Below are positions 7,526 through 11,580 of a stretch of 64,000 nt of DNA, in pieces (position 1 is the stretch's first letter; the number at the start of each line of letters is the position of its first letter). The notes under the pieces are model-generated. The model did not search any database, was not told the DNA's origin, and saw nothing but the letters and a program-made list of their open reading frames with translations. The position numbers and the translations under genes were made by a program. The stretch is from Sulfurirhabdus autotrophica. Lineage in GTDB: Bacteria > Pseudomonadota > Gammaproteobacteria > Burkholderiales > SMCO01. Location: positions 434,001-498,000 of the forward strand of contig NZ_SMCO01000001.1 in the NCBI RefSeq assembly GCF_004346685.1, written 5' to 3'.

Positions 7526-8206
7526 TTATTTTGCACCCCGAATATCATCCAGACTCACGGTTCGGTATTGTTTTGGCAATGTAAAAAGCTGACTATCCAT
7601 GTTGATCATATGGTAACCCACCATGCGACGCGTATTGCCGCTGTGATAAGTAGCCTCAAGAGGTAATCCATATTTCAGTTCCCGTCCAAACTCAAATACG
7701 GTCTGCGCGAGATCACAATCGTTCTGTAACTCAGGTGGCGTCGCCATGAAAGTTTGAGCTTGAACCTGCGCCAGAGTCTCGTTATAGCGACGCAATGCAC
7801 TTACTGCATCCGGCAGGAACCCTTCAACAGCCGTAATTTGCATGCACATCGTATCATTCACGAAAATATTTACCTTTTTAGCGCCTTTACCTTGCTTTGG
7901 CAAATCAGTTACTTCCTCGCGGACGACCCATTTTGCGGGCTTTTGCATTGTGACCACACCTGCATCGATTTTGAGAATTTCCTGACGATCGTGTGTCACA
8001 TTGAAAATGCGCTTTTCCTGACGATCCAGCAATAAAAAATCGCTCTTGTTATTCCCATCATCAATCCGCATGAATTGATCTGTAATCAGAATACGCATCG
8101 GTACAGCTGGCGTTCCTTTTTCCTGATCCAGATAGTTCAACTCCAGCATTTGCGAAGCCCATGCCGGCATTGCCAGCATCCATAAAATCAGAATCTTTTT
8201 AAGCAT
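7526..8206 (-). CDS. predicted periplasmic protein of unknown function
   Basis: A 226-aa protein with a clear Sec signal peptide (MLKKILILWMLAMPAWA then SQ, cleavage likely after the Ala near residue 18). The remainder is hydrophilic, with beta-rich character (RILITDQFMRIDDGNNKSDFLLLDR) and two cysteines (near 118 and 161) that could form a disulfide in the periplasm. I do not recognise a named domain with confidence. Its first 8 bases overlap the end of metZ, so it is translationally coupled and in the metZ transcription unit. It therefore probably shares control by the metZ leader riboswitch, although no link to methionine metabolism is visible in the protein. Confidence 0.7.
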   Translation of the reverse strand: MLKKILILWMLAMPAWASQMLELNYLDQEKGTPAVPMRILITDQFMRIDDGNNKSDFLLLDRQEKRIFNVTHDRQEILKIDAGVVTMQKPAKWVVREEVTDLPKQGKGAKKVNIFVNDTMCMQITAVEGFLPDAVSALRRYNETLAQVQAQTFMATPPELQNDCDLAQTVFEFGRELKYGLPLEATYHSGNTRRMVGYHMINMDSQLFTLPKQYRTVSLDDIRGAK

Positions 8207-9371
8207 TTAACCCCCGTGCCAAATCAGCTTGAATATCGCCAATCGCTTCCAGACCTACTGCAACACGCAGCAAACCATCACCAATCCCCGATGCAGCTCT
8301 TGCTTCTGCCGTTACCCTGCTGTGCGTGGTTGTAGCTGGATGCGTAATCGTCGTTTTGGTATCCCCCAGATTTGCGGTAATGGAAAGCATTCTGGTGTGA
8401 TCTACAACTCGCCACGCAGCATCCTTACCTCCCTTTACATCAAAGGAAAGTATCCCTCCCCCGCTCTTCTGCTGTTTCATTGCCAGATCATGTTGAGGAT
8501 GTGATGCCAAACCTGGATAATAAACACGATCCACCTGCGGATGTTGCTCCAGCCATTGCGCTAAAGCCAAAGCGTTTTGTGAATGTGCATCCATTCTGAT
8601 TTTAAGCGTTTCCAGTCCCTTTAATATTACCCAGGCGTTAAATGCACTCAGGGTGGGACCAGCTGTACGCAAAAATCCGTATACACCTTCCATTAATTCC
8701 TTCTTACCCAGCACAGCCCCACCCAGCACGCGACCCTGTCCATCCAGATATTTGGTTGCGGAATGAATCACGATGTCAGCACCCAGATCCAACGGACGTT
8801 GCAACATGGGCGTGCAGAAACAATTGTCCACAGCCAGCCATGCACCCGCCTGTTTTGCTACGCTGCTTAATGCACCGATATCGCATACTTCGGTCAATGG
8901 GTTGGATGGTGTCTCAACAAACAACAACTTAGTGTTTGGCTGAACAGCCGCTTGCCATGCGCTCACATCAGTCAATGAAACAAAAGTCGTCTCAATACCA
9001 AAGCGCTTCAAAATATTGCCAAAGAGCTGCACGGTTGTACCAAAAATGCTGCGCGAGGCAATGATATGATCACCAGCGGACAAAAGCCCCATGACGCAAG
9101 ACAATATGGCGGACATCCCGCTGGAAGTAGCCACGCAAAACTCGGCGCCCTCAAGGGCGGCTAAGCGTTCCTGAAATACGGTCACTGTCGGATTGGTAAA
9201 TCGCGCATAAATATTCCCTGGCTCCTGACCAGAAAAGCGGGCTGCTGCCTGCGCTGCATTCTCAAAGACAAAACTTGAAGTGAGGTACATTGCCTCAGAA
9301 TGCTCATTGAATTGACTGCGGTGGATGCCGGCTCGCACGGCCAGCGTTTCTAGTTCGAAATCATCAGACAT
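8199..9371 (-). CDS. metZ: O-succinylhomoserine sulfhydrylase
   Basis: A PLP-dependent Cys/Met-metabolism enzyme (390 aa from the ATG at 9371) expected to make homocysteine directly from O-succinylhomoserine and sulfide. Family signatures seen are SSFVFENAAQAAARF, TSSGMSAILSC, the DNCFCTP segment and the PLP-lysine motif HSATKYLDGQGRVLGGAV. A longer reading to a TTG at 9386 is possible, but that TTG lies inside the perfect Shine-Dalgarno GGAGGTG, which sits 5 bases before the ATG at 9371, so I choose the ATG. The gene follows purF, as in the pseudomonad/betaproteobacterial block, but here it has its own promoter, SAM-II aptamer and terminator. It overlaps the next gene by 8 bases. Confidence 0.93.
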   Translation of the reverse strand: MSDDFELETLAVRAGIHRSQFNEHSEAMYLTSSFVFENAAQAAARFSGQEPGNIYARFTNPTVTVFQERLAALEGAEFCVATSSGMSAILSCVMGLLSAGDHIIASRSIFGTTVQLFGNILKRFGIETTFVSLTDVSAWQAAVQPNTKLLFVETPSNPLTEVCDIGALSSVAKQAGAWLAVDNCFCTPMLQRPLDLGADIVIHSATKYLDGQGRVLGGAVLGKKELMEGVYGFLRTAGPTLSAFNAWVILKGLETLKIRMDAHSQNALALAQWLEQHPQVDRVYYPGLASHPQHDLAMKQQKSGGGILSFDVKGGKDAAWRVVDHTRMLSITANLGDTKTTITHPATTTHSRVTAEARAASGIGDGLLRVAVGLEAIGDIQADLARGLNA

Positions 9372-9388
9372 ATTATTCACCTCCAAAT

Positions 9389-9421
9389 AAAAAAACCCGT
9401 CCAGCTTGCGCGGAACGGGTT
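9389..9421 (-). terminator. intrinsic terminator in the metZ leader (riboswitch expression platform)
   Basis: On the minus strand AACCCGT (9421-9415), a 14-nt loop, ACGGGTT (9400-9394) and a run of T residues (9395-9389). The U tract ends about 17 nt before the metZ start codon and just before its Shine-Dalgarno. Placed downstream of a SAM-II aptamer, it looks like a transcription-attenuation platform rather than only a purF terminator. The loop contains CGCAAGCTG (9410-9402), perfectly complementary to CAGCTTGCG inside the aptamer (9461-9453). Confidence 0.85.
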
Positions 9422-9424
9422 ATT

Positions 9425-9476
9425 CCTCGTTTAGCTGGATTTATAAAGCGCCCGCAAGCTGAAATCAAATCGGCGC
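9425..9476 (-). ncRNA. SAM-II (SAM-alpha) riboswitch aptamer upstream of metZ
   Basis: Seen: P1 strands GCGCC (9476-9472) and GGCGC enclose a loop beginning GATTT. The 3' strand is followed by TTTATAAAT and then CCAGCTAAACGAGG. These match the SAM-II landmarks in order: P1, GAUUU, UUGC before the P1 3' strand, AUAAAU, then AGCUAAA. The class binds S-adenosylmethionine through an H-type pseudoknot and turns off methionine genes; it is best known from Alphaproteobacteria upstream of metA, metX/metZ and similar genes. The position directly before metZ and about 3 nt after a predicted transcription start fits this function. Recognised by motif order only; no covariance model was run. Confidence 0.88.
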
Positions 9477-9485
9477 ATGAATATA

Positions 9486-9514
9486 AAGTTACGCTTCCCG
9501 CATAACGATGTCAA
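9486..9514 (-). promoter_or_regulatory. sigma-70-type promoter of metZ
   Basis: TTGACA (9514-9509), a 17-nt spacer and TAACTT (9491-9486) on the minus strand. The -35 is consensus; the -10 is weak (three of six positions). It starts 8 bases after the purF stop codon and places +1 near 9479, immediately before the SAM-II P1 stem. That arrangement suggests the riboswitch is at the very 5' end of the metZ transcript. Confidence 0.6.
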
Positions 9515-9521
9515 TTATTTT

Positions 9522-11048
9522 TCAGGATTCCGCCGAGCTGAGATTAAGATCAAGCTGTCGTGTGGACACAGATGCTTTATCGTCGTCATTACCGTCATTC
9601 CGGTTTGATTCAATCATCGCAAGATATTCTGGCGTAACATCACCCGTAATATAGTCGCCGTTAAAGCAGGACGATTCAAAATGTGTAATGAGCGGATTGG
9701 CCTTTGTGACGGCCGCTATCAATGCATCAAGGTCCTGATAGAACACCGCATCGGCTCCGATTTCCAGTGCGATCTGATCATCCGTACGGCCAGTTGCCAG
9801 CAGTTCCTGACGCGTTGGCATATCGATACCATAAACGTTCGGAAAACGCACTGGCGGTGCGGCAGAAGCCAGATAAACTTTACGCGCACCCGCTTCACGT
9901 GCCATTTGGACGATCTGCTTGCTGGTAGTACCTCGAACAATAGAATCATCCACCAACAACACATTTTTATCTTTAAATTCAATCCCGATCGGATTTAACT
10001 TTTGACGCACAGACTTTTTACGCATCGCCTGGCCTGGCATAATAAATGTACGGCCAATGTAGCGATTCTTTATAAAGCCTTCACGATAAGTTACCCCTAA
10101 TCGGTTCGCCAATTGCAAGGCACTTGGGCGACTGGTATCCGGAATGGGAATCACCACATCGATATCTTCAGGACTCAGGGTTAAACGAATTTTTTCAGCA
10201 AGACTTTCCCCCATGTATAAACGGGTTTCATACACAGAAATACCATCAATCACTGAATCGGGTCTGGCCAGATACACATATTCGAAAATACAAGGATAAT
10301 ACTTTGGATTCATCGCACATTGCTGGCTATAAAATTCACCAGTCTGCTCTACCAATATTGCCTCGCCTGGCGCAACATCTCTCATCAGCTGGAATCCCAA
10401 CGTATCCATAGCGACACTTTCTGAAGCAACCATATATTCAGTGCCACTCTCAGTCTCAGTCTTGCCAATCACCATTGGGCGAATACCATAAGGATCACGA
10501 AAAGCCACCAAGCCATATCCCGCAATCATTGCCACCACAGCGTAAGCACCACGGCAACGGCGATGCACCCCAGCTACTGCAGAAAATACGGCGGCAGCGT
10601 TAAGCTTGTGGTTGTTTGAGCTTTCTTGCAATTCATGGGCCAAAACATTTAACAGCACTTCAGAATCAGAGTTAGTGTTAACGTGTCTTAAATCCTGCTG
10701 AAAAAGTTCTTCTTTCAACTGTTCAGAATTTGTCAGGTTGCCATTGTGTGCAAGGACAATGCCAAAGGGCGAGTTTACATAGAAAGGTTGTGCCTCAGCA
10801 GAGGAAGACGCGCTGCCAGCAGTCGGATAGCGAACATGAGCAATGCCCATGTTACCCTTTAACGAGCGCATATTACGAGTTCTAAACACATCCCGCACCA
10901 TGCCATTCGCCTTGTGCATATGAAACGTATTACCCTCAGCAGTGACAATGCCAGCGGCGTCCTGACCGCGATGCTGTAGCACCTGCAACCCATCATAAAG
11001 CACCTGATTAACGGGGGACTTTGCAACGACGCCTATAATTCCACACAT
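9522..11048 (-). CDS. purF: amidophosphoribosyltransferase
   Basis: Catalyses the first committed step of purine synthesis (PRPP + glutamine to phosphoribosylamine), in the cytoplasm. From the ATG at 11048 the protein begins [10 protein letters not shown], so that processing leaves the essential N-terminal nucleophile cysteine; upstream in-frame codons run into cvpA and are not part of the gene. The N-terminal glutaminase (Ntn hydrolase) domain has HRGQDAAGI and HNGNLTN. The C-terminal phosphoribosyltransferase domain has the PRPP loop [18 protein letters not shown]. 508 aa is the usual length. It is the last gene of the trpF-to-purF run, 37 bases after cvpA. Confidence 0.96.
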
Positions 11049-11085
11049 ACCCGATTTACTCGAAAAATAAAAATTTTGAAACTGC

Positions 11086-11580
11086 TCACATATCGTATTT
11101 GATTCGCCTGGACAAATCATCCGGCAACCAAGGTTTGATACTGACAGCTAACGCTTCCAGAGGTGCACTAAACATCGCATTTTGCCAGAATCTCTGACGT
11201 GGAATAGCAGTAAGGCCAGCCAACAATACCAGCACAAGAACAATCAACAGCCCTCTTGCCAACCCAAAAAAAGCACCTAACCCTCTATCCATCATGCTCA
11301 ACCCGATCGTTTTAACCAATTCAGACAGGGTAATAGTCAACAGGCTCATCAGTAGCAGCGTCACCAAAAACAAAATCACAAAAGCCGCTAAAAAACGGAG
11401 GGATTCATCAGGTATGGCATTTGGCAGTATAGGCTCAAATTGCACTGAATAAATGTTCGCAATCCAGAAAGCTACAAACCAGGACAAAAGCGCTAAAACT
11501 TCTCGTACCATGCCTCGCATGAGGCTCAGCAAAATAGAAAAGCCGGTTATCAGCAATACTGCGTAATCGAATGCCGTCAT
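11086..11580 (-). CDS. cvpA: CvpA family membrane protein (colicin V production protein)
   Basis: A 164-aa inner-membrane protein with four hydrophobic segments (residues about 3-20, 28-47, 62-85 and 103-125) and the family opening [20 protein letters not shown]. The molecular role is unknown; in other proteobacteria CvpA is linked to envelope stress tolerance and colicin V export. It sits between a SPOR-domain protein and purF, the conserved context of the family, with short gaps on each side (25 and 37 bases). Confidence 0.92.

Follow-up and report, generated by a model that had tools for sequence, protein, structure and literature searches.

A SAM-II class riboswitch 5' of metZ in Sulfurirhabdus autotrophica, with a predicted nested antiterminator

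Results

The purF-metZ gap and its promoter

The window, i.e. the whole 64,000-nt stretch of Sulfurirhabdus autotrophica DNA analysed here, carries metZ downstream of purF on the minus strand, both genes being named after their NCBIfam matches (Table 1). As purF ends at 9522, the gap between them is exactly 150 nt. A first-pass annotation of the sequence had placed in this gap a promoter, the core landmarks of a SAM-II aptamer, and a terminator hairpin with its T run, and all of these were found at the positions it had given. The leader lies in sense, 5' of a methionine gene according to the NF006003 match. At the other end of metZ, an overlapping gene (7526-8206, minus strand) encodes a 226-aa protein for which no Pfam match was found.

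From the two promoter hexamers, transcription would be expected to start near 9479-9478. The TTGACA-17-TAACTT arrangement was absent from the output of a generic promoter scan, whose scanner needs four matches per hexamer. Among 87 distinct related leaders, parsed from RF00521 loci and metZ loci, a promoter score of at least 8/12 was reached in 77, versus 5 of 87 after shuffling. The relatives have TTGAC(A/G/C) followed by a TAnnnT-like element, with a spacing of 16-18 nt and at a similar distance from P1. This conserved layout agrees with where the promoter was placed in the 2005 description of SAM-II (PMC1273637).

Table 1. Coordinates of the metZ leader and its neighbours in the window, and of the matches to RF02424.
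Feature	Position	Strand	Basis
metZ, O-succinylhomoserine sulfhydrylase	8199..9371	-	NF006003, 729 bits (cut-off 522); ATG at 9371
Shine-Dalgarno GGAGG of metZ	9380..9384	-	sequence; outside aptamer and terminator
U tract (7 U)	9389..9395	-	sequence
Intrinsic terminator hairpin	9394..9421	-	-16.3 kcal/mol, z -3.65; terminators 3' of 82/87 related aptamers
Proposed nested antiterminator	9400..9439	-	-16.7 kcal/mol, z -3.7; co-adaptation across leaders
CGCAAGCUG, partner of 9453-9461 in the antiterminator of the first-pass annotation (alternative pairing)	9402..9410	-	duplex -18.8 kcal/mol
GGAAU, candidate P2a 3' strand with AUUUC 9461-9465; pairs GUUCC 9412-9416 in the other fold	9422..9426	-	sequence; folds
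SAM-II aptamer (P1, L1, P2, GCUAAA)	9422..9476	-	matches to RF00521 and to the relatives' model R1
P2b 3' strand GCUAAA	9430..9435	-	sequence; R1 match
P1 3' strand GGCGC	9448..9452	-	fold; 100% paired, two covarying pairs in 26 relatives
P2 5' strand CAGCUUGC, part of the 9-nt strand 9453-9461	9454..9461	-	GCTTGC in 85/87 leaders
L1 GAUUUGA, SAM-pocket strand	9465..9471	-	GATTT in 84/87 leaders
P1 5' strand GCGCC, pairs with 9448-9452	9472..9476	-	fold; 100% paired, two covarying pairs in 26 relatives
-10 element TAACTT, 17-nt spacer	9486..9491	-	sequence; layout conserved in relatives
-35 element TTGACA	9509..9514	-	sequence; TTGACN at the corresponding position in most leaders of relatives
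purF, amidophosphoribosyltransferase, upstream gene	9522..11120	-	TIGR01134, 541.5 bits (cut-off 350)
RF02424 match, window	9390-9510	+	
RF02424 match, L154	182-318	-	
RF02424 match, L023	1420-1603	+	

Assignment to the SAM-II class

An Rfam search at gathering thresholds reported nothing on the window. By E-value, the SAM-II model RF00521 matched positions 9415-9486 with 29.3 bits (E 5.9e-5 in 301 nt, and 1.8e-4 when the whole genome was searched). The covariance search proposed in the first-pass annotation therefore gave a significant match by E-value, but one below the gathering cut-off of 36 bits, which is an operational threshold and no structural feature. Among 100 genomes of the same order, RF00521 had matches in 44 and exceeded its cut-off in 16 of them only, so that a low score is typical of the order.

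We therefore rely as well on an independent model, R1, built from an alignment of 26 same-order relatives from which the window was left out. R1 matched the window's aptamer over 9423-9479 with 64.2 bits (E 1.5e-17), its next-best match in the 64 kb scoring 14.4 bits, and had matches in 71 of the 100 genomes. In addition to the P1 pairs (Table 1), P2b was invariant in the 26 relatives and P2a had one covarying pair. When partners were slid by one to three columns, the proportion of paired cells fell from 96.5% to 32-55%. In the wider leader set, the P2a position was Watson-Crick in 55% of cases, versus 32% expected. By both models the element is a SAM-II riboswitch in class, as had been proposed, and it would be expected to bind SAM as the family does.

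The P1 stem of the window has 5 pairs in the fold, and the conserved pocket bases (L1 U run, CUUGC, GCUAAA) are all present, with GCTTGC at 9459-9454 (minus strand). In the P2 pseudoknot, P2b (UUGC/GCUAA) is present and P2a can be drawn in two ways. In 82 of the 87 leaders GCUAAA is followed by a G, which is missing in the window, as in four other parsed leaders (L134, L144, L148, L160); its loss could weaken SAM binding. The window thus resembles SAM-II/SAM_alpha (RF00521, PMC1273637) in its P1, in the motifs GAUUUGA of L1, GCUUGC and GCUAAA, and in having its promoter just before P1 and its terminator between P2 and the methionine gene. It differs by a short P2a, by the lack of the G after GCUAAA and by a score below the Rfam cut-off, the last as for most matches in the order.

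The strand opposite SAM-II leaders is matched by RF02424 (Bp2_287, a predicted Burkholderia sRNA), whose consensus includes the SAM-II core in reverse complement. This family probably represents the SAM-II leader, assigned to the wrong strand. A real antisense sRNA of this family in the window was rejected, its match reaching 22.7 bits where the cut-off is 70.

Distribution of the leader in the order

An intrinsic terminator follows the aptamer in 82 of the 87 leaders, which makes transcriptional SAM-II the rule in the order. Downstream genes sampled were the methionine genes metZ, metX and metH, and a cystathionine gamma-synthase-like gene. The relatives of the window's genome are betaproteobacteria, and the closest relatives of its metZ (84-87% identity) belong to Sulfuricellaceae and allied Nitrosomonadales. 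Covariance matches and the relatives' loci thus agree with the first-pass annotation that a SAM-II aptamer with a terminator platform precedes metZ in a betaproteobacterial background. Among close relatives the leader is patchy: it is found in L034-L036 and L112-L114, and is missing in L031 and L032 (near relatives, including a Sulfurimicrobium MAG), where metZ lies directly 3' of purF. The latter arrangement suggests loss or replacement of control. The window's genome has one SAM-II riboswitch and one SAH riboswitch (G000:C10:24985-25066, L169; RF01057, 67.9 bits).

Other leaders of the collection showed unusual arrangements. Four of them (L013, L023, L025, L154) are tandem: about 90-170 nt 3' of a normal SAM-II aptamer lies a second one that is SAM-II-like, and these second aptamers have an altered loop in common (AATCGACAACTTGC in three cases). 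They may differ from the normal aptamer in ligand or affinity. The short ORF 3' of this second aptamer (starting MYDC in some) matched no NCBIfam or Pfam family. Paired R1 matches were also found in G004, G045 and G031. Finally, SAM-II-like leaders with unusual targets were found at L150 2-346 (minus strand), before a threonine ammonia-lyase-like gene, and at L163 311-679 (plus strand), before an OsmC-like gene; the aptamer of L163 has atypical features and could have matched by chance.

Two candidate antiterminators

The first-pass annotation had noted that CAGCTTGCG (9461-9453), in the aptamer, is perfectly complementary to CGCAAGCTG (9410-9402), in the terminator loop, and had proposed this 9-nt helix as the antiterminator. 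The complementarity was confirmed. The second strand is indeed in the terminator, but extends beyond the loop, since it begins with the final base of the 5' arm, spans the GCAA loop and runs into the 3' arm.

Folding revealed another candidate, a nested hairpin in which UCCAGCU (9439-9433) pairs with AGCUGGA (9406-9400) and encloses GGAAU (9426-9422) paired with GUUCC (9416-9412). This hairpin is built with the P2 3' strands of the aptamer itself, leaves P1 in place, and is complete before the 3' arm of the terminator. Its energy and that of the terminator are nearly equal (Table 1), the two are mutually exclusive, and each lies far beyond its shuffles; the stability of the whole-leader fold was unremarkable relative to shuffles (z about -1). 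For transcripts with a 3' end between 9402 and 9395, the minimum-energy fold was P1 plus the nested antiterminator, and from 9394 on it was P1 plus the terminator, in folds that ignore the pseudoknot, the ligand and kinetics. As the antiterminator takes strands needed by the SAM-bound P2, ligand and antiterminator would be in direct competition.

Co-adaptation of aptamer strands and terminators

For each candidate strand, the duplex energy with the leader's own terminator, truncated ahead of the final five pairs of the 3' arm, was compared with that obtained with swapped terminators, taken either from other leaders or from a background of 108 terminators, the latter from the collected loci only. 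In 75 leaders, the P2 3' strand plus linker gave -15.6 kcal/mol with its own terminator, -13.4 with those of other leaders (p 2e-6) and -11.6 with the background (p 9e-11). The P1-loop strand, i.e. the one of the 9-nt helix, gave -12.6, -11.7 (p 0.13) and -10.7 kcal/mol (p 3e-4), respectively. When each similarity cluster was reduced to a single leader, both strands were significant by permutation, the P2 3' strand plus linker more so. Composition was then controlled for by subtracting composition-matched shuffles: over 51 de-redundant leaders, the P2 3' strand plus linker scored -5.94 versus -4.02 (5.5 sd, 0/5000 permutations), and the P1-loop strand -1.81 versus -0.93 (3.7 sd, p 0.0004). The relatives are non-independent, and de-redundancy lowers the effect of kinship without removing it.

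In the window itself both pairings are extreme. The P2 3' strand plus linker ranks at 0.00 against either set of swapped terminators, and few leaders have a better antiterminator. At the level of single bases, covariation in the antiterminator was nominal (p 0.02-0.04, with short motifs and several tests); among these, a stricter test of motifs within the variable bases 5' of GCUAAA gave 23 versus 16.4 expected (p 0.019, uncorrected).

Discussion

Proposed mechanism and its rivals

We consider it likely that the leader is a SAM-II (SAM_alpha) riboswitch acting as a transcriptional OFF switch for metZ by means of the nested antiterminator. What follows on ligand binding, on the direction of control and on kinetics is inferred. 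RNA polymerase would start near 9478, just 5' of P1. At high SAM, the ligand would fix the P1/P2 pseudoknot, in which GCUAA(A) and the P2a strand 3' of it are held; the terminator would then fold and stop transcription in the U tract. At low SAM, P1 would still form, and the free P2 3' strand would pair with the nascent terminator (UCCAGCU/AGCUGGA, GGAAU/GUUCC). Since this antiterminator would be finished at 9400, with six bases of the terminator 3' arm still to be made, metZ would be transcribed. The attenuator would also gate read-through from purF. Reading of metZ at low SAM only, the logic put forward in the first-pass annotation, is thus plausible.

The same OFF switch could instead flip through the pairing of CAGCUUGCG (P1 loop, P2 5' strand) with CGCAAGCUG, possibly as a pseudoknot with P1 intact. 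We regard this as unlikely. The helix is strong in the window, where its 9 perfect pairs extend to 11 with an added U-G and U-A and its duplex energy beats all 108 background terminators (rank 0.00); its co-adaptation is weak but significant after composition control, and four leaders (L001, L005, L095, L151) have a match of similar length. However, the advantage over the terminators of other leaders was not significant in the 75 leaders, and at least 8 contiguous pairs were seen in 6 of 82 leaders, in a rough count whose background contained unrecognised leaders. As a nested fold, moreover, this pairing comes at the expense of P1, and at every transcript length the alternative is more stable. 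Part of the match is accounted for by CAGCU, present in both aptamer strands, so that AGCUG of the terminator can pair with either, including the P2 3' strand. The nested hairpin, favoured in nascent folds and more strongly co-adapted, appears to be the better model from folding and sequence comparison, and the 9-nt helix possibly acts as a competitor or folding intermediate.

Could the switch itself have decayed? A degenerate riboswitch having lost SAM control, its hairpin serving as a constitutive attenuator or as the purF terminator, would be consistent with the missing G and with an RF00521 score below that of most relatives; the near relatives L031 and L032, which do without the leader, suggest in addition that the switch is dispensable. 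All other pocket positions are nevertheless intact, the R1 score is 64 bits, four further leaders lack the same G, and platform, promoter and antiterminator are preserved, the latter among the best of the collection, which makes decay very improbable. Less credible still, to the point of being nearly negligible, is a translational control in which the pseudoknot masks the ribosome-binding site. Although this is the mode of the Sargasso metX type of SAM-II (PMC10907184), the Shine-Dalgarno sequence of metZ lies downstream of aptamer and terminator, outside P2.

Relation to known systems

SAM-II binds SAM and often lies 5' of terminators (Corbino 2005, PMC1273637), and a 2007 paper had already reported terminator-linked SAM-II from both alpha- and betaproteobacteria (PMC2258182). 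A 'novel' metXZ element, with six conserved sequence blocks, a pseudoknot and a terminator 5' of metX or metZ in betaproteobacteria, is described in Leyn 2014 (PMC4239095). There it sits before metZ in Methylophilales, Nitrosospira and Thiobacillus, it is listed separately from SAM_alpha, and its conserved leader regions are speculated to pair with the terminator stem. The window likewise has a metX/metZ leader of a betaproteobacterium followed by a terminator. It shares with the element the single metX/metZ leader, the terminator and a putative antiterminator, and probably also conserved blocks and the pseudoknot. Judged by genes, lineages and layout, SAM-II and the metXZ element are very probably the same RNA. 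The first-pass annotation had deemed a transcriptional SAM-II in betaproteobacteria informative, but it is not new, given the reports of 2007 and, for the class, 2014, and it is common in the order.

In Sinorhizobium meliloti, high SAM raises the terminated leader RNA of the metZ SAM-II and lowers metZ mRNA (Scheuer 2022, PMC9373788). That leader is also a SAM-II before metZ with an intrinsic terminator; S. meliloti is an alphaproteobacterium, unlike the window's organism, and the likeness is one of layout.

Beyond the window, we lean towards the view that betaproteobacterial SAM-II leaders have a common nested design, in which the P2 3' strand (nCmGCUAAA) plus linker is kept while terminators differ by genus, the metXZ element being the same riboswitch. 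With this strand as antiterminator, the strand that binds SAM would also be the one that opens the terminator.

By itself, the metZ leader is one further SAM-II riboswitch, of a kind already described and common in related bacteria; what is fresh is only a better-supported prediction of how it flips. For the order, the Rfam cut-off misses most SAM-II members. And where the literature examined offers speculation only, comparative evidence now points to the strand that would serve as antiterminator.
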